Of a stretch of DNA of 58,468 nucleotides, positions 7,476 to 57,192 are shown in pieces (position 1 is the first letter of the stretch; the number at the start of each line of letters is the position of its first letter). The translations under genes and the position numbers were made by a program. Origin of the DNA: a virus; the IMG/VR virus record IMGVR_UViG_3300032011_000011, positions 1 through 58,468 of that record; one strand, given 5' to 3'. Below the pieces are notes generated by a model. It did no database searches, had not been told where the DNA came from, and saw nothing but the letters and a program-made list of their open reading frames with translations.

Positions 7476-8321
7476 TTAATAGAGGAGTGTGTGTAGTTGT
7501 TTGATACGTGCAAGAGGTACAGCAGCAGCTTGAGGAACTATGGAGTTACCTAAGCACTTAAGTCTGTCCATCCTGTTGGAAAACCCATCATCTCCTCTAC
7601 AAATGGTGGGTTGAGATACGTACCCTCTCCAGTCAGGTTCGAGTGTGTGTGGTTGAGTACTCCAGCAAGGCGTTTCTTCTTGGCTGCCTTCTCGTAGTTG
7701 GTGTTCTCCCCTGAGTCCTTCCAATCTCTGGCAGTCGGTGTTGGTAGCGTCAGTAGTGCTGCTAGTAGCGGTGTCCCTCCCTGCTTGAATGGGACTTTCT
7801 GTTCTATCTTCGTTGACCCTAGAGGGGTAGGCAATAAACCACAGTCTTTCTCTGAGGTGACAGGCTCCCACATCTTTTGCCGAAACAACCGACCACTCAA
7901 CATCAAACCCTGCTTTGGTAATTTCTTGGAGAATTTGCTGGAAAGTTTCCCCGTCTTTGTGAGAGATGAGATTTCTAACATTTTCAAAGAGGATGAACTT
8001 AGGTTGTATCTGCCGAGCCAATCGGAGGACGTGAAAAAATAGCCCACTTCTTGTGCCCTCTCCAATACCTTCTTGTCTACCTGCAATGCTGACGTCCTGA
8101 CAGGGAAAACCTGCTGTGATGACTTGGAATTGACCTTCTGTGGCGTTGAACTCGGTGATGTCATGGTGAATCGGTACGTTAGGAAAGTTTTTGTGGAGGA
8201 CTCTCTGACAGTAGGTGTCAATCTCTACAAATTGAGTAGTCTCGAAGCCTCCTACTAGGCGTTCAGCAGCGTAAGAAAAGCCACCTATACCACTGAATAG
8301 GTCTAGAACTTTAAGCGTCAT
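7476..8321 (-). CDS. dcm: DNA (cytosine-5) methyltransferase
   Basis: Transfers a methyl group from S-adenosylmethionine to cytosine C5 in DNA. All core motifs are visible in order: motif I VLDLFSGIGGFSYAAE (residues 5-20), motif IV with the catalytic Cys in GFPCQDVSIAG (about 90-100), motif VI ENVRNL (about 133), motif VIII HLRERLWFIAYP (about 175-186) and motif X CLGNSIVPQAA (about 256-266). At 281 residues the target-recognition segment between VIII and X is short. Phages use such enzymes to evade restriction or mark their DNA. The gene couples to the upstream ORF by TAATG. Another long frame is nested in it (7550-8221). Confidence 0.93.
   Translation of the reverse strand: MTLKVLDLFSGIGGFSYAAERLVGGFETTQFVEIDTYCQRVLHKNFPNVPIHHDITEFNATEGQFQVITAGFPCQDVSIAGRQEGIGEGTRSGLFFHVLRLARQIQPKFILFENVRNLISHKDGETFQQILQEITKAGFDVEWSVVSAKDVGACHLRERLWFIAYPSRVNEDRTESPIQAGRDTATSSTTDATNTDCQRLEGLRGEHQLREGSQEETPCWSTQPHTLEPDWRGYVSQPTICRGDDGFSNRMDRLKCLGNSIVPQAAAVPLARIKQLHTLLY
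7550..8221 (-). CDS. Frame nested inside dcm, GLLPTP...GFPTGWT protein
   Basis: A 223-codon frame on the same strand as the methyltransferase, shifted +1 and lying entirely inside it. It contains SSSSLKMLEISSLTKTGKLS, LPKQGLMLSGRLFRQ, DCGLLPTPLGS, LLTLPTPTARDWKDSGE and YLNPPFVEEMMGFPTGWTDL. From memory, phage and metagenome proteins with repeated (W/L)PTPTA and a terminal LNP.(F/W)VE..MGFP.GWT form a recurring family annotated as methyltransferase-associated or hypothetical. Here those motifs are the +1 reading of Dcm motifs VIII and X. It could be a true overlapping gene or a recurring shadow; I cannot decide from one sequence. The ATG at 8221 has no strong ribosome site. Confidence 0.4.
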   Translation of the reverse strand: MTPTVRESSTKTFLTYRFTMTSPSSTPQKVNSKSSQQVFPVRTSALQVDKKVLERAQEVGYFFTSSDWLGRYNLSSSSLKMLEISSLTKTGKLSSKFSKKLPKQGLMLSGRLFRQKMWEPVTSEKDCGLLPTPLGSTKIEQKVPFKQGGTPLLAALLTLPTPTARDWKDSGENTNYEKAAKKKRLAGVLNHTHSNLTGEGTYLNPPFVEEMMGFPTGWTDLSA

Positions 8322-19722: not shown

Positions 19723-21246
19723 ATGGCAGGAACAAGTATTTATAGTGTTTATCGACGAACTGCGAGAGCAGCCGCTAAACAACAAGTTGTCAAAAAAACT
19801 TCTAATATTGATGTAGAGCGAGCACGAGAAGATTTTGCATACTTTTGTGATGTTGTAGGAGATAAACCACCAGCCACTCACCATAAAGAATGGCATAAAT
19901 ATTTGTGTACTGGAAAGGATAGTGAATGTTTAGTAGGTATTGGTGGACCCAATATTGATATCTTGGCACCTAGAGGAAGTGCTAAATCCACAATCCTTGG
20001 TTTATATACAGCTTGGACTGTTGGTATACATGCTCTTAATAAGCAACCATTAAAGGTTTTATATATTTCTTACACTGTTGATGTAGCAAGACCTAAAAGT
20101 GCAGCCATAAAAAGAATTATTGAAGAAAGTAAAACATATCGTGAAATTTTTCCCAGAGTGAAAATTGCTAAAGGTATTAATTCTAATGAGTATTGGAGTA
20201 TTGATTGGAAGTTTGCTGGAATTAAATCTACTGGAGAAGAAGAGTTTACTGTTTGTTGTGCAGGCTTAAAAGGTGCTGTGACATCTAAACGTTCTCATCT
20301 TTGTATTATTGATGACGCTATCAAAAGTGCTGATGATATTAAAAACAGAGATATTCGCCAAGCTATGCAGGATAACTGGAACTCAGTCATAGTTCCTACT
20401 ATGTTTGAAGGAGGTAGAGCTATTTGTTTAGGAACTCGTTTCCGTCATGATGATATTCATAACAGTACTTTTACTCCAGCAAATGATTGGGTTCAGATAG
20501 TCCAGTCTGCAATCACTGTTGATAAGGATGGTGAAGAAATTTCGTATTGGCCAGATATGTGGTCTTTAGATTATTTACGAGATAGACGACGCCAAGCTCC
20601 AGTTGCTTTTAGTTTTCAGTATCAAAATCAAATAATACAGACAAGTGAGTTATCCCTTTCTCCAGACTTGGTTGTTAAAGGAGCTATAGCAACTCAGTTT
20701 GATGCTATGGGTATTGGAGTTGATCTATCAGCTGGTATAAGAGAGCAGAATGATTTTACTGCTTTTGTAATGGGTGGAAGGATAGGAAATAAGATTCATG
20801 TGATTGATTGTAAAAGATTGAGAATAATGGGGAATTTAGAAAAGTTAGAAGCATTAATGGAAATGTTAGATGAGTGGGGAGTTATTCATAAAGATGGAGA
20901 TAATTACTTTCCTACAGGTAGTTCTATTCATGTTTGGTCTGAAGCTGTTGCATATCAGGCATCTTTAGAAGCTGACTTCAAACGTATCTGCTTAGGTGAT
21001 CAAGGACTGTATAACGTTCTTTGGCATCCTGTTAAAGGATTTCGAGGAGACAAAGTTGCACGCTTTAGGGGCATTATGGGTTTATTTGAGCAAAGAAAGA
21101 TTACTTTTAATAAGTATCGAAAGTTCACTGCATTAACAGATGAGATTGTCAATTTCGGTGTTAGCTCCCATGATGATTGTGTTGATGCTTTAGTTTGGCT
21201 TTGTAATGGATTAATGACCAGAGGAAAACTAGAGTTAGAGTATTGA
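19723..21246 (+). CDS. terL: Terminase large subunit
   Basis: The packaging motor: ATPase plus nuclease. Walker A-like APRGSAKSTILGLYTAW (residues about 85-101), Walker B HLCIIDDAIKSADD (about 195-208, with the DD pair), and a coupling segment CLGTRFRHDD. The nuclease half has VDLSAGIREQNDFTAFVMGG with the first acidic residue and ends with SSHDDCVDALVW, whose Asp residues are metal ligands. Length 507 is typical. Followed by an AbrB-like gene and the portal. Confidence 0.93.
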   Translation: MAGTSIYSVYRRTARAAAKQQVVKKTSNIDVERAREDFAYFCDVVGDKPPATHHKEWHKYLCTGKDSECLVGIGGPNIDILAPRGSAKSTILGLYTAWTVGIHALNKQPLKVLYISYTVDVARPKSAAIKRIIEESKTYREIFPRVKIAKGINSNEYWSIDWKFAGIKSTGEEEFTVCCAGLKGAVTSKRSHLCIIDDAIKSADDIKNRDIRQAMQDNWNSVIVPTMFEGGRAICLGTRFRHDDIHNSTFTPANDWVQIVQSAITVDKDGEEISYWPDMWSLDYLRDRRRQAPVAFSFQYQNQIIQTSELSLSPDLVVKGAIATQFDAMGIGVDLSAGIREQNDFTAFVMGGRIGNKIHVIDCKRLRIMGNLEKLEALMEMLDEWGVIHKDGDNYFPTGSSIHVWSEAVAYQASLEADFKRICLGDQGLYNVLWHPVKGFRGDKVARFRGIMGLFEQRKITFNKYRKFTALTDEIVNFGVSSHDDCVDALVWLCNGLMTRGKLELEY

Positions 21247-21476: not shown

Positions 21477-23753
21477 ATGAGCGATAGCAATACTAAATCC
21501 GCAATCGATTCTATCGTTAAGTCGGTTATCGAACGTGATGGTTCTGGTACAGCAGATACGATGCTGATCAACGCCCATTTATCTCAAATGAAGATGTTTG
21601 GGATAAGGCAAGGAGTTGAGTTCTTTCCACAACAAGATAATTTAGGTACTCAAAGATTTGATTTTATTCAACAGGTTATTAAATTTAATAAATTAGATGC
21701 ACGGCTTGATTCAATTTGGGATAGATTTTTAGCTTATGGAAAAGGTTTATTTTATATAAGACCTACAAGAAAAACTTATCGTATCTATTGGTTTGATAAA
21801 GATTCATATAGGACTTATTACACACCAGAGGGTGACTTAGAAGAGGTAATTATTATTTATGGGTACAAAGTTCGTTCTAAAAAGGGATTTAAAGGAGCTG
21901 GTTTAAATACAGATAAGCGTTATATGCGTTTACGTATTACTGCAACTGAGATTGAAGAGTTTCATAGTGAACAAGAAATAACTTTTGATCAAGAAAACGT
22001 TAGTTTTGCATCTCAGAACAAGAAAGTATTAGAAAACACTATGGAGTTTATTCCATGTGTTGAAGTATTTAACAATCCTGATGCTTTCGGAACGGATGGA
22101 GCTGGTGAATTTGAGTGGTTAGGTAATCAAATAATTGCTCATGATGAGATGGTTAAAAACATAAGGGCAAACTTATCGTTCTTTGGTAATCCAACTTTAT
22201 TATCTTCTCGTCCTAAGCAAGACATTGTTGAAAGTAGTTCAGATAGTGAAGTACAAAGACCAAGTATTTCAAGTCAATCAGGTTTTCAATCTAATTTTGA
22301 TTTATCAAGTTCGACGTTCAAGCAAGATCCAGTAACTAGAACGCAGCCAGGTTATATAGGTAAACCCGGTTCAGGTCTACGTGTTCCAAGAGTTATTGCT
22401 AATTTGGAGCCAGCAGATCGTGTTGGTTTTATTACACCTAATGCAGTTAGTACCGATCAGGCTAGGTATGCAGAACAACTACGTAGTGAGCTACGGTTGG
22501 CCTTAGGAGGCATAGATGACCTAAGTATTACAAATGTAACCGCAACGGAGATTAAATCGGCATATGGACGTGTCAGTGCTACTGCAAAGAAGAAATGCTT
22601 ACAACTGTATACTTATGGAATTTGTAAGGTTTTTGAATTAATACTTTTTCAAGAAGAACAAATATTTAGAAAGTCACTTGCTTTTGTTTCTAATATTAAA
22701 TATCCAATAGTTCCTGAAGATTTAACTGATGAAAAAGCAGTTGAAAAGTATGAAAAAGGAAAGATGAAATATGAGATTAAATTACAGCAAGCAGTTGATT
22801 TATCATTAGAAACAGGAGAGATACCAGATGGTGTTGTAGGACTGGCACCCGATGGAGATAGGACTATCCTATGGCGTTGGATGGGTCCTGTTTATGAAGA
22901 CACACCTCAAGATAAATTAAACCAATCTATCTTCACAAGAAACCTCCAAGAATTAGGCGTTGATAGCATAGAAGCACTGAAGTACCTATTTCCTTCTAAA
23001 ACTGACGACGAAATAGCAACGATGCTATCTGGTTATCCGTTTAGAATTGTAGGAGAGGTACAAAGAGCTTTCTCAGCTTTCATTGATTTAGCTAATCAAG
23101 AAATGAGAACGCCACATCCGCAGCAACCGAATTTACCGATGGCTGCAGATCCGAGATTAGATCTCACTCCATTTTTATATAAAACACTAGAGCAACTCCA
23201 GAAGGAATTAACTTATGCAGGACGCTACCGTAGCGCCGACCCAATCGGCACCCCAAGTATCCCAGACCCAGCCGACCAGCTACGTGGCTCCAGCGGCTCA
23301 GGCACCAGTGGCTCAGGCACCAGTGGTGGGTACAGCTCCCCAATGGGTGGCAACATCCCAGCCAATGGCGGCACCAGTTCCACAAGCGCAAGCGCAGATG
23401 GGGATAGCGGCTCCACAATACAGCCCTACACCGTCAAGTTACCAGGAATATCAGGCACCCCAACAGCAGGAGAGTCCATACAAGGAAGCCTTCAACAAGG
23501 TGGTCGGGCTCCTGAGTTCACCAGTCCAGTTCCCGTTCCAGGGTCAACAGTCGACTCAGACTCCAGCAGCAGGCCAGGTCAACTACGCTTCCCAACAGAC
23601 AACCCCATACAGCAACGCGGTTCAGCCGACCTCTATGCCTGGGACCGTGAGCAACCAGGATTACTCCAACGCCTCTTCCCAAACATCTACGGGGATAACA
23701 GCGGAGCAACTAGCGGCAAGCGGAGTAAGCGACGCAAGTCTTCAAGTAATTGA
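21477..23753 (+). CDS. Portal protein with long disordered C-terminus
   Basis: 758 residues. The large N-terminal body has FDFIQQVIKFNKLDARLDSI, RIYWFDKDSYRTYYTPEGDL and ADRVGFITPNAVSTDQARYA, the helical-core style of phage portals, and lies directly after TerL. The portal forms the dodecameric DNA entry ring at one capsid vertex. From about residue 580 the protein is Gly/Ser/Thr/Pro-rich and probably disordered, ending in a basic tail (KRSKRRKSSSN). This tail is encoded in the same DNA as the N-terminus of the next gene, out of frame. Confidence 0.85.
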   Translation: MSDSNTKSAIDSIVKSVIERDGSGTADTMLINAHLSQMKMFGIRQGVEFFPQQDNLGTQRFDFIQQVIKFNKLDARLDSIWDRFLAYGKGLFYIRPTRKTYRIYWFDKDSYRTYYTPEGDLEEVIIIYGYKVRSKKGFKGAGLNTDKRYMRLRITATEIEEFHSEQEITFDQENVSFASQNKKVLENTMEFIPCVEVFNNPDAFGTDGAGEFEWLGNQIIAHDEMVKNIRANLSFFGNPTLLSSRPKQDIVESSSDSEVQRPSISSQSGFQSNFDLSSSTFKQDPVTRTQPGYIGKPGSGLRVPRVIANLEPADRVGFITPNAVSTDQARYAEQLRSELRLALGGIDDLSITNVTATEIKSAYGRVSATAKKKCLQLYTYGICKVFELILFQEEQIFRKSLAFVSNIKYPIVPEDLTDEKAVEKYEKGKMKYEIKLQQAVDLSLETGEIPDGVVGLAPDGDRTILWRWMGPVYEDTPQDKLNQSIFTRNLQELGVDSIEALKYLFPSKTDDEIATMLSGYPFRIVGEVQRAFSAFIDLANQEMRTPHPQQPNLPMAADPRLDLTPFLYKTLEQLQKELTYAGRYRSADPIGTPSIPDPADQLRGSSGSGTSGSGTSGGYSSPMGGNIPANGGTSSTSASADGDSGSTIQPYTVKLPGISGTPTAGESIQGSLQQGGRAPEFTSPVPVPGSTVDSDSSSRPGQLRFPTDNPIQQRGSADLYAWDREQPGLLQRLFPNIYGDNSGATSGKRSKRRKSSSN

Positions 23754-24201
23754 TCATTTCGGTGCTGACGCTCCAGCAATTCTTAATGACTATGCTTGTA
23801 AGGTAGAAGATTCACTTATTAAAACTGATAGTCAGTTAAAGCAAGGTGTAGGTTTACTAAAACAGTTAAATGCTGAGCATAAGAAATATACAAAAATTCT
23901 TACTGATCCTAATGTTTTAGCAGACTATACAACAAAGTTCTTTGGTCCTAATGGTCCTCATCCTGTAACTCCTGCAGCACCTGCTCAAAGGCAACAAGCA
24001 GCGCCAACAGCTCAGAGAGTAGCTCCTCAACGTCCTGAGATGCCTATTCCTCCACAGCCTCAAGCTGCCGCTTCTCCAAGTGATTTCTGGAATAACTTCG
24101 GTTCTGCTGCTGATAGAGATCCTCAAAATGCATGGAGGTATCTAAGTGCTGCCCAGCAAAATCCTGAGGTCTTCCGTCAGAAGCTCCTTGTAATGGAATA
24201 A
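23215..24201 (+). CDS. Assembly/scaffold-like protein overprinting portal
   Basis: 328 residues with an ATG at 23215 preceded by AAGGA at good spacing. Residues 1-165 are Gln/Pro/Ala/Thr-rich and low complexity. From about 180 the sequence is helical and charged (ASLQVIDHFGADAPAILNDY, LIKTDSQLKQGVGLLKQLNA), then a Pro/Gln-rich linker and a terminal helix (NAWRYLSAAQQNPEVFRQKL). Position between portal and capsid and this composition fit a capsid scaffold or head assembly protein. The first 539 bases overlap the portal gene in another frame. Confidence 0.75.
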   Translation: MQDATVAPTQSAPQVSQTQPTSYVAPAAQAPVAQAPVVGTAPQWVATSQPMAAPVPQAQAQMGIAAPQYSPTPSSYQEYQAPQQQESPYKEAFNKVVGLLSSPVQFPFQGQQSTQTPAAGQVNYASQQTTPYSNAVQPTSMPGTVSNQDYSNASSQTSTGITAEQLAASGVSDASLQVIDHFGADAPAILNDYACKVEDSLIKTDSQLKQGVGLLKQLNAEHKKYTKILTDPNVLADYTTKFFGPNGPHPVTPAAPAQRQQAAPTAQRVAPQRPEMPIPPQPQAAASPSDFWNNFGSAADRDPQNAWRYLSAAQQNPEVFRQKLLVME

Positions 24202-24435: not shown

Positions 24436-25032
24436 ATGAAAGCTGTTATAGATACTATTAAAAATATTATTTCTCCAGAACAAAACTGGAGTAAGTTTTT
24501 AATGAAGATTATAGGTGTAGGAGTAGTAGCCGGTATAGGGTTTACAGGATATCAAATATACACTGGTTCCCAAGAAGAGGAAAAAGGACCCGATGATTCT
24601 ATTGAAGTTATCTTTGAGGAGAAACCAGAGAAGAAATTAGAAGTAGAAGAGATATTAAATGATTTAACTAGAAGTAATAGAGATATTAGTTCCGTATGGT
24701 TATATGACTGGCCTGATGCACGAAATATAGTACCTGTTTTTAATTCACCACGAAACTCTAGAGATCCTTTACCAAGCGGATATTGGATGCCTGGTGATGA
24801 AAGAGTTATTGGCAATTTTGTTCTTGGTTCTTGTACCAGATTGGATAGAAAGTTTCCTAATGCCGCTTGCCCCATTATGGGGAAGGAGGATGCATGGGGA
24901 GTTCTTGTAGTTGAGTATACTAAAGCTCCAGAAGATGATCCTTTGTGTATTTTGCCTCAGAAGTCATGTGTAAGACCTGCGAAAGTAGCTTCTATGAAAA
25001 TTAGTGAAACACTTTATTTATTACCTGATTAG
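24436..25032 (+). CDS. Membrane-anchored hypothetical protein, 198 aa
   Basis: Residues about 20-43 form one membrane segment (FLMKIIGVGVVAGIGFTGYQ) after a positively charged start, so the rest would face outward. An acidic linker (EVIFEEKPEKKLEVEE) is followed by a domain with four or more cysteines (GSCTRLDRKFPNAACPIMG, DDPLCILPQKSCVRPAK) that could form disulphides. No family recognised. It lies directly before the capsid promoter region. Confidence 0.6.
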   Translation: MKAVIDTIKNIISPEQNWSKFLMKIIGVGVVAGIGFTGYQIYTGSQEEEKGPDDSIEVIFEEKPEKKLEVEEILNDLTRSNRDISSVWLYDWPDARNIVPVFNSPRNSRDPLPSGYWMPGDERVIGNFVLGSCTRLDRKFPNAACPIMGKEDAWGVLVVEYTKAPEDDPLCILPQKSCVRPAKVASMKISETLYLLPD

Positions 25033-25168: not shown

Positions 25169-26317
25169 ATGTTTATAGATAACGATTTCCCGAAACTTCT
25201 CGGAGCGGAATTGTATCGTCCCCATCCAGCTTACATCGTGGAAATGGCTTCCGAGCCAGTAGTAGTACATGATTTTACTAAGCAGCCTGGTCAGACTGTA
25301 CAGCTAGACCGCTACAGATTCTTCGGCAATCCTGGAACAAAGACTAGCCGTGAGCGTACTCAGGATCAAACCATAGGTACAGCTAACAGCAGATCTATTG
25401 TCAAGGACAAGGTTCTTGTATCTCTTCGTGAGTACACAGGCCCAGCCGATCCAAACAACACAAATCTTCCTAGCACATTCAAGATTGCTAGAGAGACCTT
25501 GATGACAGCACAGCGTTTGCTGCTTGATACTGGGAACCTTAATATGTTCCACCAGTCAATCGGTAGTTTAACTCTGTTAGATGACTACCGTCGTTGGAGA
25601 GATAGAGTCTTCATTGATGAACTCTTTAAGAGTGAGTCAAGAGGCCAATCTTCTGATTCACAAGGTGGATACTACTATCCAAACGGAAAAGCAAAAACAA
25701 ACTCAACTACTCTTACTGCATACACAGCTACAGAATATGCTTCTGAGCGCTTTAAGTTCAACGTAAAAACTGACCTTTTAGAAGTTGTAAAGAGTTTACG
25801 TAAGCGTCACGTACCTGTCTTTGAAGACGGATACTACAGATGTATCGCTGACCCTTCATTCATGAAGGATCTACGTGCAGACCAAGGCTTCCGTGAAGTT
25901 GCTCGTTACCCTGGAATGCCTGGACAAGGTTCTCCTTTGATGGGTGCTGGACAACCTAACCAAGCTATCTACGCTGGTGGTCAATTTGGCCAAGCCCAGT
26001 TTGTAGGTGGAGAGCCAGTCATGCCAAGCGGTTTCGTGTTCGAGGGAGTAAGATTCTTTGAGTCTACAAACTTCCCTGCTAAAACTATTACTGCTGATAT
26101 CGGTGATGGTAATGGCGCAGGTTCCAAAACTACTCCTGCTGGATTGTTCTTCGGTCCTCAGGCTATCGGTGTAGGTATTGGTGGTCCAAACGCTCAAGTT
26201 CTAATTAATAACAACGACGACTTCAGCAGATTTATTATTCTGATCTGGCAGTTGTACGCTGGTTTTGCGAACTTGAACAAGGACTTCATCACTACAGCCT
26301 TCACAGTGGCTGAGTAA
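25169..26317 (+). CDS. Probable major capsid protein
   Basis: 382 residues, located after portal and assembly protein. Codons change visibly here toward C-ending, GC-richer synonyms, as expected for the most abundant virion protein. Segments include VEMASEPVVVHDFTKQPGQT (a strand-rich N-terminus), TLMTAQRLLLDTGNLNMFHQ, LLEVVKSLRKRHVPVFEDGY (spine-helix-like) and a C-terminal FGPQAIGVGIGGPNAQVLIN. An HK97-type fold is likely for a tailed phage but is not proven by a motif. Own promoter region and downstream partner at 26331. Confidence 0.78.
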   Translation: MFIDNDFPKLLGAELYRPHPAYIVEMASEPVVVHDFTKQPGQTVQLDRYRFFGNPGTKTSRERTQDQTIGTANSRSIVKDKVLVSLREYTGPADPNNTNLPSTFKIARETLMTAQRLLLDTGNLNMFHQSIGSLTLLDDYRRWRDRVFIDELFKSESRGQSSDSQGGYYYPNGKAKTNSTTLTAYTATEYASERFKFNVKTDLLEVVKSLRKRHVPVFEDGYYRCIADPSFMKDLRADQGFREVARYPGMPGQGSPLMGAGQPNQAIYAGGQFGQAQFVGGEPVMPSGFVFEGVRFFESTNFPAKTITADIGDGNGAGSKTTPAGLFFGPQAIGVGIGGPNAQVLINNNDDFSRFIILIWQLYAGFANLNKDFITTAFTVAE

Positions 26318-36359: not shown

Positions 36360-39300
36360 ATGTATATTGGGAATGATCTTCAGGTTGCCTATCCTAGTTA
36401 TAAAATAATTGATGATATCAGTTCAAGTTTTAATGGCAGTAATACTTCATTTGCTTTACAGGTAGGCGGTTCAACTCCTGTTCCTTTTCCTATTAACACA
36501 CAACAGGTAATGATATCTGTTAATGGTGTTATACAGGAACCTGATCCTACTGGCAGCGCTGGTTTTAAATTACAAGGTTCAAATATAGTATTTAGCTCTG
36601 CGCCAGCTAATGGCCATGCTTTTTTTGGAGTAATTAATGCAGGTGCTGATTATGTATCTGCAGGTGCAGATTTTCCAAATGGTACTGTTGGTTCTCCAAG
36701 TCTTACTTTTACTAATGATCTAGATACAGGATTTTATCGAGTTGGCTCTGGTTCTGTAGGTTTTAGTTCTAACGGTGTTTTAACTTCAAATTTTGATGGT
36801 AATGGTTTAACGATAACTGGTACCTGTACTGCTACTACTTTTAGTGGTAATGGTGCTTCTATAACTCATTTAGATTTAGCCGATGCAACTAACACTGGAA
36901 CAATACCTGTAGCAAGACTTGGTTCAGGTGCAACTTCTTCTAAATTTTTAAGAGGTGACAACAGTTGGCAGACAGTTAGCGGAACAACAATCAATAACAA
37001 CTCAAACAATCGAGTTATTACTGGTTCAGCATCCAGCAATACTTTAGAAGCTGAGGCAGACCTTACTTTTTCAAGTGGCAAGCTTGATATTGGTGGTAGT
37101 GATACTGTAAAACTAAACCTTATAGGAGCTAATAACCCAACAATAGATTTTAAAGAGGGTAGTACTCAAAAGGGTTATCTTCGATGGAATGCTAGTGGAT
37201 ATATGCAGTGGAAAAATGATGCAGATTCTTCAGAAATAAGACTTAAAGATGATCTTCAATTTAGTACTGATGGTTCAACTTTTTATTCAATTTTAAATAG
37301 TAATAGTAATTTAAATGCAAGTAAATTAACTTCTGGAACAGTAGGAACAGCTCGTCTTGGTAGCGGGAGTGCCTCATCGTCAACTTTCTTGAGGGGCGAT
37401 GGATCGTGGGCTGCTGCTGGTGGTGGTACGACTTCTACTAGTAATCAAAATTTATACACCTCCTCCGCTGGAAATAGTGATGGTGGTACATATAACATCT
37501 CTCTTGGATATCAATCAGGTAATGCTTTAGCTAGTGGAGGCAATTATAACATTAGTTTAGGAAGAGAATCTGGTAAAGCTATAACTACAGGTGACATGAA
37601 TGTTGCTATAGGATATACCGCTGGATATAACATTACAACTGGTGGTAGTAACATAGCAATTGGAAATTATTCTATGCTTAATAATTCCAATACAGGGAAC
37701 TTTAATGTTGGTATAGGAAGTAGTGCATTAAGGAGTTTTACTAGTGGTGAAGATAACGTTGCTATTGGACAAGATGCTGGTTATAACCTAACGAACGTAT
37801 CTAATAATGTTCTCGTAGGAAAAAACGCTGGATATAGCTCTACAACTGGCACCCAGAACGTAATTGTTGGTAATTATGCAGGAGCAATGGGTTCAACTGC
37901 TAGTCAGAACAGCTTTTTTGGATATCAAGCAGGTACTGATGTTAGTACTGGAACTTATAATACTTGTATAGGATATCAAGCTGGAAATCAAGGATCAAAT
38001 GATATAACATCTGGTTCTAATAATACTGTAATTGGTCATGCAGCTTCAGCTTCAGCTTCAACTATATCTAATGAAATAACTTTAGGTAATACATCTATAA
38101 CCAAATTCCGTATTCCTGGAATTAACTTTGTATTAAAAGATAACGGTGGGACACCTACTACTGGTCAAGTATTAACAGCAGACGGAAGTGGCGAAGGTTA
38201 TTGGGCTGCTGCTGCTGCTGGTGTTTCTTCAGATGCTCAGTACAACACTGTTGGTGGTACCAACGCTGGAAATAGCTTTAGTGGTACATCTGCACTTTCT
38301 AACACCTTGTTCGGTTATAACGCTGGAACAGCAATAACATCTGGTGATTTTAATACGGTAGTAGGTAAAGGCGCTGGTATGGCTATAACAACAGGCTCAT
38401 ACAATACTACAATTGGTGAGGGTAGTGCACTTAATTTAACTACAGCTCTTTCCAATGTTGGGTTAGGACATGGCACACTTAACACGGTACAAACTGGAAA
38501 TGAAAATACAGCACTAGGTACTTTAGCTGGACAAAGTATAACTACTGGACAATATAATATCTGTGTCGGTGGAAATTCCTATGGACCTACGACAGGTCAA
38601 GGCAATATTGGAATAGGTAGACTTACAGGTCAAAGCTTGACTACTGGTAATTGGAATATATGCATTGGTCATGCTGCTGGGAATACGCTTACTACAGGAA
38701 CAAATAATATTCTTCTCGGTGAATATTCTGCTCCAAGTTCAGTTACAGTTAGTAATGAAATAACGCTTGGAAATACGTCTACAACCAAGTTTAGAGTTCC
38801 TGGACTTAACTTTTCAATCAAAGATTCAACGGCTACTGATAATTATGTTTTAACAGTTGATGCAAATGGTGACGCTGGTTGGGAAGCTGCTGCTGGTAGT
38901 GTCAATTCAGATGCTCAGGAAAACACGGTTGGAGGTACAAATGCAGGAGATAGTTTTAGTGGCACATCTGCAACTGAGAACACTTTGTTTGGATATGACG
39001 CTGGAACAGCAATAACAACTGGAGATTGCAATACATGTTCTGGACACTCATCTGGAAAAGCTTTAACAACTGCTTATAATAATACTGCAATTGGTCATGA
39101 TGCTTTAAAAACTGGAACAACTGCTAATAATAATACTTCAATTGGTCATACAGCTGGAGAATATATAACTACTGGAACATACAATGTTAGTTTAGGATCT
39201 AGTGCAGGTTCCAACGTTACAACTGGATCTTACAATCTTTCTATGGGGTATATGAGTGGTAAGTGTACTACTGGCTCTTATAATATTGCTTTTGGTTTTA

Positions 39301-39968
39301 ATACGATGTACCAATCTGCAGATGGACCTAGTTATAATGTAGCTATTGGTTATCAATCAGGATATTATATCAGTGCTACTGGAGGAGGAGATAACGGTAA
39401 AGGTAATACGTTTGTAGGACAAAATTCAGGAACAGGTGTGACTACAGGTCATAACAACTTATTATTAGGTTTCAACGCCGGATATAGTGCAAACCCTGCT
39501 GGTTATATTTCAACTGGTAGTGACATAGTATGTCTCGGTGATAACAGTATTACTAACTTGTATTGTGCTGATACAACTATATCCTCATCTGATAAACGAG
39601 ATAAAACAGACGTTACTGACTTTACCCACGGTTTAAAGTGGATTGAACAGTTAAAACCAATAACCTATAGATGGGATAAGAGAACTTGGTATAGCGAATA
39701 TAACGAAGATGGTACTGTTAAAACCGAAGGTACTCCAGACGGTTCAAAGAAAAGAGCACGACAACATATTGGTTTCTTAGCACAAGATGTACTAGCAATA
39801 GAACAAGCTGATGGCTTTGCTAGTAAGAAAGACGACATGCTCATAGTCAATCTAAATGAAGATGACACAGCTTATGGTCTTAAGTATGAGAGGTTAGTAC
39901 CAGTTCTCGTTAACGCTATTAAAGAATTATCAGCAAAAGTAACAGCTTTAGAAGCTAAAGTAGCATAA
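36360..39968 (+). CDS. Large tail fibre with S74 chaperone domain
   Basis: 1202 residues. N-terminus DDISSSFNGSNTSFALQVGG is a virion-attachment module shared with the fibre at 57240. The shaft has tens of TG..N..IG..AG repeats (e.g. TGDMNVAIGYTAGYNITTGG), likely a trimeric left-handed beta-roll. The C-terminal 130 residues are a peptidase S74 domain: SSSDKRDKTDVTDFTHGLKW, LKPITYRWDKR, HIGFLAQDVLAIEQADGF, LVPVLVNAIKEL. S74 folds the trimer and cleaves itself before SD. It is the probable receptor-binding fibre. Confidence 0.85.
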   Translation: MYIGNDLQVAYPSYKIIDDISSSFNGSNTSFALQVGGSTPVPFPINTQQVMISVNGVIQEPDPTGSAGFKLQGSNIVFSSAPANGHAFFGVINAGADYVSAGADFPNGTVGSPSLTFTNDLDTGFYRVGSGSVGFSSNGVLTSNFDGNGLTITGTCTATTFSGNGASITHLDLADATNTGTIPVARLGSGATSSKFLRGDNSWQTVSGTTINNNSNNRVITGSASSNTLEAEADLTFSSGKLDIGGSDTVKLNLIGANNPTIDFKEGSTQKGYLRWNASGYMQWKNDADSSEIRLKDDLQFSTDGSTFYSILNSNSNLNASKLTSGTVGTARLGSGSASSSTFLRGDGSWAAAGGGTTSTSNQNLYTSSAGNSDGGTYNISLGYQSGNALASGGNYNISLGRESGKAITTGDMNVAIGYTAGYNITTGGSNIAIGNYSMLNNSNTGNFNVGIGSSALRSFTSGEDNVAIGQDAGYNLTNVSNNVLVGKNAGYSSTTGTQNVIVGNYAGAMGSTASQNSFFGYQAGTDVSTGTYNTCIGYQAGNQGSNDITSGSNNTVIGHAASASASTISNEITLGNTSITKFRIPGINFVLKDNGGTPTTGQVLTADGSGEGYWAAAAAGVSSDAQYNTVGGTNAGNSFSGTSALSNTLFGYNAGTAITSGDFNTVVGKGAGMAITTGSYNTTIGEGSALNLTTALSNVGLGHGTLNTVQTGNENTALGTLAGQSITTGQYNICVGGNSYGPTTGQGNIGIGRLTGQSLTTGNWNICIGHAAGNTLTTGTNNILLGEYSAPSSVTVSNEITLGNTSTTKFRVPGLNFSIKDSTATDNYVLTVDANGDAGWEAAAGSVNSDAQENTVGGTNAGDSFSGTSATENTLFGYDAGTAITTGDCNTCSGHSSGKALTTAYNNTAIGHDALKTGTTANNNTSIGHTAGEYITTGTYNVSLGSSAGSNVTTGSYNLSMGYMSGKCTTGSYNIAFGFNTMYQSADGPSYNVAIGYQSGYYISATGGGDNGKGNTFVGQNSGTGVTTGHNNLLLGFNAGYSANPAGYISTGSDIVCLGDNSITNLYCADTTISSSDKRDKTDVTDFTHGLKWIEQLKPITYRWDKRTWYSEYNEDGTVKTEGTPDGSKKRARQHIGFLAQDVLAIEQADGFASKKDDMLIVNLNEDDTAYGLKYERLVPVLVNAIKELSAKVTALEAKVA

Positions 39969-56118: not shown

Positions 56119-57192
56119 ATGACACAGACTAAAGCTGAATTATTACAAACCAAAAATCAAGGAGATATACGTCTTGGAGATGCTGATTCTTCACATTATG
56201 TAGGTTTTAAAGCGCCAACAACTGTAAGTGCTAATAAGGTATGGACTCTTCCTGCAGCTGACGGAAGTGCTAATCAAGTATTAACAACTAATGGTTCAGG
56301 AGTTTTAACTTGGGCTGCTGGTGGTGGTCTTTCTTCAGATGCACAGTTTAACACTGTTGGCGGTACAAACGCAGGAGATAGTTTTACTGGAACAGATGCA
56401 AATTATAATACGTTGATCGGTTATGACGCTGGAACAGCAATAACATCTGGTGATAATAATACTGTCTTTGGTTATAAAGCAGGGGAAGCTATAACAACTG
56501 TTAGTCGGAACAGCTTTTTTGGATATCAAGCAGGTAGATATACCACTGGTTATAATAACACTTTCATAGGTGAGAATTGTGGTCAAGGATCGTCTGGATC
56601 TACTACTTCTTATAATGGTACTGGTCTAGGTAAAGGTGCATTATATAGTTCAACTACTGGTGGTGGTAATACATCAATAGGCATGAACTCAGGATACGCA
56701 GTTACTACTGGTTATGACAATACGTTGATTGGTTATCAAGCTGGTAATACGCTTACAACAGGTAGAAATAACATTTGTATTGGTTATGAATCTGCACCGT
56801 CAAGCAATACAGTTGATCATGAAATAACGTTTGGAAATTCATCTATATCAACTTTACGTTGTCAAGTAACAAGCATTAGTGCCTTATCTGATAGGCGTGA
56901 TAAGACAGATATTAATACTTTAGATTTAGGATTAAACTTTATAAATGCTCTTAATCCAGTAAAATTCAAATGGAATTCAAGAGAAGGAATATTAAAAGAT
57001 GGTAGTTATGAAGCAGGTTTTATAGCTCAGGACTTTCAGGAATCACAAAAAGACTTTAATGCTGAATACCTTAATTTGGTATTAGATACAAATCCAGAAA
57101 AACTAGAAGCTGCTCCAGGTAAATTAATTCCAATAATGGTCCAAGCCATTAAAGAACTATCCGCAGAAGTCCAAGCATTAAAGAACTCATAG
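56119..57192 (+). CDS. Tail fibre with S74 domain
   Basis: 357 residues. Begins with a short coiled start, then HYVGFKAPTTVSANKVWTLP AADGSA, a module found also in the next gene; a shaft of TG..N..IG..AG repeats; and an S74 domain: SALSDRRDKTDINTLDLGLN, LNPVKFKWNSREG, AGFIAQDFQESQKDF, LIPIMVQAIKEL. The S before D is the expected cleavage residue. Lacks the N-terminal SSSFNGS attachment module, so may bind another fibre. Confidence 0.8.
   Translation: MTQTKAELLQTKNQGDIRLGDADSSHYVGFKAPTTVSANKVWTLPAADGSANQVLTTNGSGVLTWAAGGGLSSDAQFNTVGGTNAGDSFTGTDANYNTLIGYDAGTAITSGDNNTVFGYKAGEAITTVSRNSFFGYQAGRYTTGYNNTFIGENCGQGSSGSTTSYNGTGLGKGALYSSTTGGGNTSIGMNSGYAVTTGYDNTLIGYQAGNTLTTGRNNICIGYESAPSSNTVDHEITFGNSSISTLRCQVTSISALSDRRDKTDINTLDLGLNFINALNPVKFKWNSREGILKDGSYEAGFIAQDFQESQKDFNAEYLNLVLDTNPEKLEAAPGKLIPIMVQAIKELSAEVQALKNS
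56831..56957 (+). repeat. 127-bp perfect direct repeat, copy 1
   Basis: Identical to 58342-58468, over the end of the shaft and the start of the S74 domain. The base just before differs (T here, C in copy 2). Confidence 0.93.

Follow-up and report, generated by a model that had tools for sequence, protein, structure and literature searches.

The virus contig analyzed here (58,468 bases; the whole of this stretch is referred to as the window) appears to encode a portal-like protein and a second protein, P2, in two frames of the same 539 nt, and comparison with relatives indicates that the overlap is real and functional. The two genes quite probably form a true dual-coding pair among the head-assembly genes of S-EIVl-like phages, with P2 started internally and serving as a scaffold, and with a single origin of the overlap. 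As judged from the sequences, the stretch of DNA serving two genes is unusually long, and the overlap is absent from the annotation of the sole isolated relative found.

The portal-like gene (21477-23753, + strand, 758 aa) has an ATG start and encodes a conserved core to approximately residue 600, followed by a Gly/Ser/Pro-rich tail. The gene of P2, a probable scaffold (23215-24201, + strand, 328 aa), likewise starts with ATG and lies in the +1 frame relative to the portal gene; its N-terminal 178-179 residues are overlapped and approximately 150 are free. The dual-coding region (23215-23753, + strand) is defined by the ORF map together with comparative evidence. A preliminary description of this DNA had reported two + strand frames sharing 539 bases, with the second continuing about 450 bases past the portal stop; the coordinates proved exact, and the continuation measures 448 nt among the window ORFs. 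This is the sole out-of-frame overlap longer than 50 nt among the + strand ORFs encoding >90 aa in the window. The upstream neighbor is the terminase large subunit gene (19723-21246, + strand), and downstream lies the major capsid protein gene (25169-26317, + strand; phrog_1357, 3e-15).

Portal Protein and Probable Scaffold

The portal identity of the 758-aa protein is well supported. The gene is located downstream of the large terminase gene, the virion structural family phrog_20475 was matched in 38/38 aligned portal members, and two portal families were matched in some of them (phrog_64 in 20/38, best 6.1e-06; phrog_104 in 15/38, best 0.0041). The top 27 Foldseek matches in the PDB were phage portal, portal-tail, tail-complex or T7-particle entries, with low TM scores and a poor portal model (pLDDT 41), and the nine matches at E ≤ 0.001 obtained with this model were all phage portal, portal-tail or tail entries. 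No Pfam family was matched by the portal-like protein, and no PDB sequence match was better than E 1.5.

P2 is likely, though not proven, to be a capsid scaffold because it is predicted to have a disordered front followed by a long helix and a cluster of C-terminal helices, and its gene lies between the portal and major capsid genes. The model built from 76 sequences has low overall confidence (pLDDT 61, pTM 0.33), and residues 1-160 are mostly of low confidence except around a predicted helix at 88-100. This helix falls within residues 88-111 (PYKEAFNKVVGLLSSPVQFPFQGQ; 23476-23547, + strand), the best conserved stretch of P2 in the overlap. The helical region (23701-24186, + strand) comprises predicted helices 163-168, 173-182, 186-230 and 232-243, a linker, and helices 288-301, 303-313 and 317-324; the long helix 186-230 and the C-terminal helices 288-324, with short breaks, are predictions at the same pTM of 0.33. 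As a scaffold, P2 would consist of a flexible N-terminal 160 residues with one helical motif, the long helix, and a C-terminal cluster that may bind the coat protein. The shared segments of both proteins are of low complexity, as had been noted, and that of P2 is predicted to be mostly disordered.

The earlier characterization of P2 as a scaffold-like assembly protein is borne out by position and predicted architecture but not by a sequence match to a known scaffold. Pfam gave no match for the window copy and one sub-threshold match for the S-EIVl copy, and PHROG gave marginal matches (best 0.0025) to undescribed families, each in at most 3/76 members and none naming a scaffold. The PDB yielded neither a sequence match nor a fold match at E ≤ 0.001. 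Homology to the T7-like scaffold of the phage P-SSP7 was dismissed, as hhalign of P2 against P-SSP7 gp9 showed no significant similarity (probability 0.15%). It is somewhat unlikely that the dual-coding pair is real while P2 has a role other than scaffolding, such as that of a minor head, ejection or chaperone-like protein. Such a role would fit the lack of a match to any scaffold family, and disordered Q/P/A-rich segments occur in other phage proteins too; the location between the portal and capsid genes and the predicted helical C-terminal region argue against it. A 198-aa protein (24436-25032), also encoded between the portal and capsid genes, may be the other possible scaffold; it was scanned against PHROGs only and had no match.

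Conservation among S-EIVl-Like Phages

Synechococcus phage S-EIVl (KJ410740) was the sole record in the phage collection matching the portal, P2 or capsid protein. The window virus appears to be an S-EIVl-like phage, and a cyanobacterial host is suggested because S-EIVl is the only match in that collection. The S-EIVl portal (AHV82224) and P2 are 51% and 46% identical to those of the window, respectively, and the gene order, ATG position and phase are the same. In the S-EIVl record, 59840 is the last position of AHV82224 and the annotated gene that follows, AHV82225, starts at 59863, so that, unlike in the ORF call of the window, the second gene starts after the portal stop. An uninterrupted frame starting with MQDATVQS, at the same position within the portal gene, runs into AHV82225 and gives a full-length P2 of 325 aa, compared with 133 aa for annotated AHV82225, and an overlap of 554 nt. 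The S-EIVl annotation appears to lack the N-terminal part of the second gene, leaving the overlap unrecorded.

Portal queries against viral contigs gave 543, at least 598 and at least 599 matching stretches, and the best 80 of each were examined; a P2 query added 28 viral-contig matches and a genome scan three loci. The resulting 185 loci include that of the window itself, an identical contig, S-EIVl and some contigs represented twice, and two of them begin inside the overlap, leaving the start readable in 183. An ATG occurs at the same portal codon in 183/183 readable loci, and the P2 frame is open past the portal stop in 178/178 loci with a complete portal gene, with overlaps of 509-641 nt and 160 complete P2 proteins of 314-367 aa. 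An enlarged set of 255 loci, less 87 duplicates, two without the start and one unrelated phage, provided 165 distinct overlaps, in which the ATG is present in 165/165 and P2 is open in all 160 that have a complete portal gene. Homologues keeping only one frame, which the preliminary description had named as evidence against dual coding, were not encountered (P2 frame closed in 0/160 distinct overlaps, covering the most similar relatives only); more remote relatives without the overlap could exist outside the best-80 sets. The terminase gene was found upstream of the portal gene on the same strand in 156/185 loci (not in the rest, many of which are cut short), and the capsid gene was found downstream of P2 on the same strand in 139/160 loci with complete P2 but not in the remainder.

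Dereplication of 155 complete genes at <93% nucleotide identity retained 77 sequences, 37 in clade A (that of the window) and 40 in clade B (that of S-EIVl). The start site and phase are fixed across these two clades, although the portals are only 51-57% identical between them and the P2s 38-49%.

Several other features were observed in these genomes. Relative to the window terminase, the S-EIVl terminase (locus L002 2535-5075, equivalent to KJ410740.1 54080-56620) has an insert of ~340 aa between positions matching window residues 194 and 208 (CLVGDTMV...HNFIANGFNVLNC), which we take from its motifs to be intein-like; the window terminase lacks it. The S-EIVl major capsid gene (L002 9314-10438, + strand) has a GTG start, is 70.5% identical to that of the window, and is not annotated as capsid; instead, AHV82227 lies on the opposite strand over most of the gene and AHV82228 over its end. 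In the window, 36360-39968 and 56119-57192, located 16 kb apart, both match the tail-spike/virion structural families phrog_4636 and phrog_23837. Three contigs from Bacteroidetes or unnamed bacterial MAGs (QQUU01000043.1, QQUU01000104.1 and RFNU01000069.1; L183, L185 and L184, respectively) carry S-EIVl-like portal genes and are probably phage contigs misbinned into bacterial MAGs.

Probable Start Site of P2

A Shine-Dalgarno sequence (AAGGAA, 23202-23207, + strand), formed by Lys-Glu codons of the portal gene, is located 7 nt before the P2 ATG, which itself consists of the portal Tyr580 codon TAT (23214-23216, + strand), supplying the AT, and the G that follows. The good ribosome site noted previously recurs throughout the relatives, as a Shine-Dalgarno core (AGGA, GGAG or GAGG) is present in 183/183 loci, matching the constancy of the ATG. 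Among the 16 conserved Tyr columns, Tyr580 alone is TAT throughout the 77 sequences; in the others, TAT makes up 5 to 82%. The Lys-Glu codons at the Shine-Dalgarno site read AAGGAG in 40, AAGGAA in 24 and AAAGAG in 13 of the 77, and AAAGAA, used at 43/65 other portal Lys-Glu pairs, occurs in 0/77. The P2 start site appears to be selected for because both codon choices differ from those in the rest of the portal gene, and we infer initiation at the internal ATG. Ribosomes on the portal message would translate frame 0 to 23753, and other ribosomes would initiate independently at the Shine-Dalgarno sequence and ATG inside the portal gene (23202-23217), yielding the 328-aa P2 in the +1 frame. Such an internal start may supply many scaffold copies per dodecameric portal.

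The GenBank start of AHV82225 at 59863, past the portal stop, would imply that only the C-terminal half of P2 is translated and that the open frame upstream is incidental. A shorter product is possible in the 100/147 complete distinct P2 genes that have an ATG within -60 to +150 nt of the portal stop, but this stretch contains no ATG, GTG or TTG in 33/147 genes, for which the usual start codons are excluded, and only GTG or TTG in 14/147; the window P2 has no Met around the portal stop. In general, a short P2 is disfavored by the strong purifying selection on the P2 frame across the overlap and by the conserved upstream ATG and Shine-Dalgarno sequence, and we regard it as very improbable. A programmed frameshift that would fuse the portal to P2, whether or not P2 is also started separately, is equally hard to credit: with a one-base frame offset over >500 nt, a shift anywhere in the overlap would give a fusion, but the P2 ATG and Shine-Dalgarno sequence appear to be selectively maintained, and conserved residues in the alignment of relatives persist close to the portal's own C-terminus.

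Selection in Both Frames

Divergence was estimated from disjoint close pairs, 18 in clade A and 20 in clade B. In the portal frame, the proportion of four-fold sites that differ drops from 1335/3526 upstream (0.379) to 133/1438 in the overlap (0.092) in clade A and from 1907/4829 (0.395) to 145/2062 (0.070) in clade B, a 4- to 6-fold decrease (Fisher p = 1e-102 and 2e-189, respectively, with sites treated as independent). Clade B also shows reduced four-fold divergence in the portal columns that immediately precede the overlap, 500-594 (0.12-0.14 compared with ~0.45); the other two + frames there hold 4-10 stops per sequence, and one minus frame is stop-free in 10/40.

Single changes were classed by their effect in both frames, with neighbors in both codons unchanged, against an expectation of all possible mutations. 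Portal-altering changes in the overlap occur at 34.7 per 1000 expected when silent in P2 and at 4.6 when P2-altering in clade A, and at 39.2 and 3.3 in clade B; per opportunity, portal-altering/P2-silent changes thus exceed those altering both proteins 7.6-fold and 12-fold, respectively. In the upstream control, where nothing known is encoded in the P2 frame, the corresponding rates for changes silent or altering in the P2 frame are 4.6 and 5.0 (clade A) and 3.6 and 4.0 (clade B) per 1000 expected. No stop-creating change in either frame was found inside the overlap among the counted changes, whereas upstream portal-silent changes to P2-frame stops number 85 in clade A and 42 in clade B, with a rate that matches that of other portal-silent changes in clade A and is approximately one third of it in clade B.

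The pooled selection ratio, from a dual-frame comparison of the kind that had been proposed as a check, is 0.104 for P2 (0.079-0.132) and 0.178 for the portal tail (0.138-0.227), compared with 1.096 (0.905-1.363) for the P2 frame in the upstream control (transition weight 2; intervals from a bootstrap over pairs). With transition weights of 1 and 4, the ratios are 0.086 and 0.125 for P2 and 0.149 and 0.214 for the portal tail, and the control varies with the weight from 0.84 to 1.42. Changes altering both proteins are few in all five segments of the overlap. P2 is the more constrained frame overall, and the portal frame is more constrained in alignment columns 750-800 only, corresponding to portal residues 702-736 (23580-23684, + strand). 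The two-frame substitution counts indicate that both proteins are under purifying selection along the overlap, in agreement with the initial view that both frames are coding.

Synonymous divergence could instead be lowered by high GC, by DNA signals or by the structure of the RNA, with no second protein involved; the overlap is indeed GC-rich, and clade B shows milder suppression upstream too (columns 500-594). We give this almost no credence, as none of these causes would distinguish P2-silent from P2-altering changes, whereas among portal-altering changes in the overlap the P2-silent ones are ~10 times more tolerated, with little or no sorting upstream. An RNA or DNA element is likewise rejected, as the portal alignment of 77 sequences contains no run of ≥12 nt with every position ≥93% conserved.

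Frame Openness and GC Content

The openness of a frame in a single genome is not rare and is weak evidence for coding; strong evidence comes from the comparison with relatives. When the window-identical copy (L003) is shuffled without changing the portal-tail amino acids, the P2 frame is stop-free in 31.6% when the tail's own codons are used and in 9.4% with the codons of nine long window genes, a set that includes the upstream part of the portal gene itself. Shuffles that preserve the P2 amino acids instead leave the portal frame free of stops in 1.3% (own codons) and in 0/20,000 (nine-gene codons). Chance openness of the P2 frame is ruled out by the comparative evidence, for which the single-genome shuffles alone are insufficient.

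In the window, GC content is 0.56-0.58 in 300-nt intervals in or nearly in the overlap, compared with 0.32-0.41 just upstream. The overlap is richer in GC than the portal-only and P2-only parts in 37/37 clade A and 40/40 clade B sequences (77/77 dereplicated), with values of 0.586, 0.376 and 0.459, respectively, in clade A and 0.614, 0.448 and 0.520 in clade B. The GC content expected for one protein only with portal-core codons is 0.465-0.476 in clade A and 0.512-0.554 in clade B, and the observed values are 6-12 points higher. The GC island had been attributed to the constraint of two frames; amino-acid composition accounts for part of it, and the remaining 6-12 points plausibly fit dual coding.

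Origin of the Overlap

The overlap may have arisen once, before the clades split, through the flexible end of one gene extending over the other. Measured against the codon usage of their own portal cores, 61/77 sequences show the better codon fit in the portal frame, which mildly favors an older portal frame; this is weak evidence because the sequences fall into two clades and are not 77 independent cases. When the window copy is scored with nine window genes, the fit of P2 is marginally better (-1.674 compared with -1.692). The P2 ATG is located where the conserved portal core ends, which would equally suit a portal tail grown over P2. The preliminary description had the assembly protein overprinted on the portal gene, a direction that goes further than the evidence: the codon fit is mildly on its side, yet P2 is the more constrained frame and the ATG site suits either direction, and both directions of overprinting are compatible with the evidence. 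The sole candidate outgroup retrieved from the phage collection via the portal, P2 or capsid was S-EIVl, and a terminase search reached remote phages with ordinary portal junctions.

A more speculative and rather unlikely extension is that the portal tail and the scaffold N-terminus, both flexible, touch during procapsid nucleation, one of these ends being a novel peptide born over the other before the clade split. If true, two interacting surfaces would evolve in one stretch of DNA, inseparable by recombination.

A Second Long Overlap in the Window

A C5 cytosine methyltransferase gene (7476-8321, - strand; PF00145, 9e-50; phrog_363, 1.2e-73) contains a nested ORF in its +1 frame (7550-8221, - strand) that matches phrog_1008, named DNA methyltransferase, at 1.5e-19. 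A scan of viral contigs with the nested protein gave 474 related stretches, of which the best 80 were taken, and 86 methyltransferase loci were compared (the window, L257-L260 and L264-L344, with some contigs represented twice). In 85/86 loci, matches to the two proteins keep the same phase with respect to each other, and the open frames overlap by ≥500 nt in 81/85 (maximum 963) and by less in L273 (144), L286 (464), L322 (315) and L343 (297). A motif and length filter was passed by 36/85 loci, of which 25 were distinct and gave nine pairs. In these pairs, methyltransferase-altering changes inside the nested ORF occur at 51.3 per 1000 expected when nested-silent and 9.7 when nested-altering, compared with 15.2 and 10.4 outside, where counts are few (8 and 15), and no stop was created inside the nested region. 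Methyltransferase four-fold sites differ at 152/608 inside and 126/279 outside the nested ORF. Some relatives have an early stop in the corresponding nested stretch, and the nested start codon is putative. Most of these loci were picked by similarity to the nested frame, which inflates conservation but should not give rise to the sorting of changes. The methyltransferase and nested frame are a second long dual-coding candidate, apparently under two-frame purifying selection and unrelated to the portal/P2 overlap; one narrow literature search found nothing on it.

Significance and Comparison with Known Systems

The phage lineage in which two head-assembly genes share >500 nt is matched by at least 598 stretches of viral contigs and offers a natural, many-sequence case for studying two proteins that evolve in one DNA. 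The S-EIVl group also gains a scaffold candidate that is testable in an isolated phage. Moreover, annotation can hide long overlaps, as the record of the isolate removed the portal/P2 overlap, and the methyltransferase overlap supports this warning.

The scaffold of phage P22 encircles the portal and attaches to coat protein via a helix-turn-helix (PMC12005531). The P22 scaffold gp8 forms a nucleation complex with the portal gp1, with 250-300 scaffolds and 12 portal subunits, and the available portion of that source makes no mention of a portal-scaffold gene overlap (PMC12005531). The helix-turn-helix coat-binding domain is that of P22, and no sequence or fold match of P2 to the P22 proteins was found.

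In P-SSP7, the scaffold gene directly follows the portal gene and has a separate start where portal coding finishes: the last base of gp8 is also the first of gp9, an overlap of 1 nt compared with 509-641 nt here. P-SSP7, HTVC023P and two environmental phages have at most 25 nt of possible overlap with the following genes. These are loose comparisons rather than proven outgroups because the portals do not align significantly (hhalign against P-SSP7 gp8, HTVC023P gp31 and one environmental portal).

In the titles and abstract openings retrieved on S-EIV1, portal-scaffold overlaps and long phage overlaps, there was no apparent description of the portal/P2 overlap. Long gene overlaps are familiar in small RNA and ssDNA viruses. 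According to the available part of a survey by Schlub and Holmes (PMC7017920), 84% of the overlaps annotated in viruses are shorter than 50 nt, and the longest one reported as identical and shared between viruses measured 185 nt, with sharing judged by sequence identity. The portal/P2 case is likewise a gene overlap, in a dsDNA phage, but it spans >500 nt, occurs in phages that have diverged strongly, and is missing from the annotation of the isolate.
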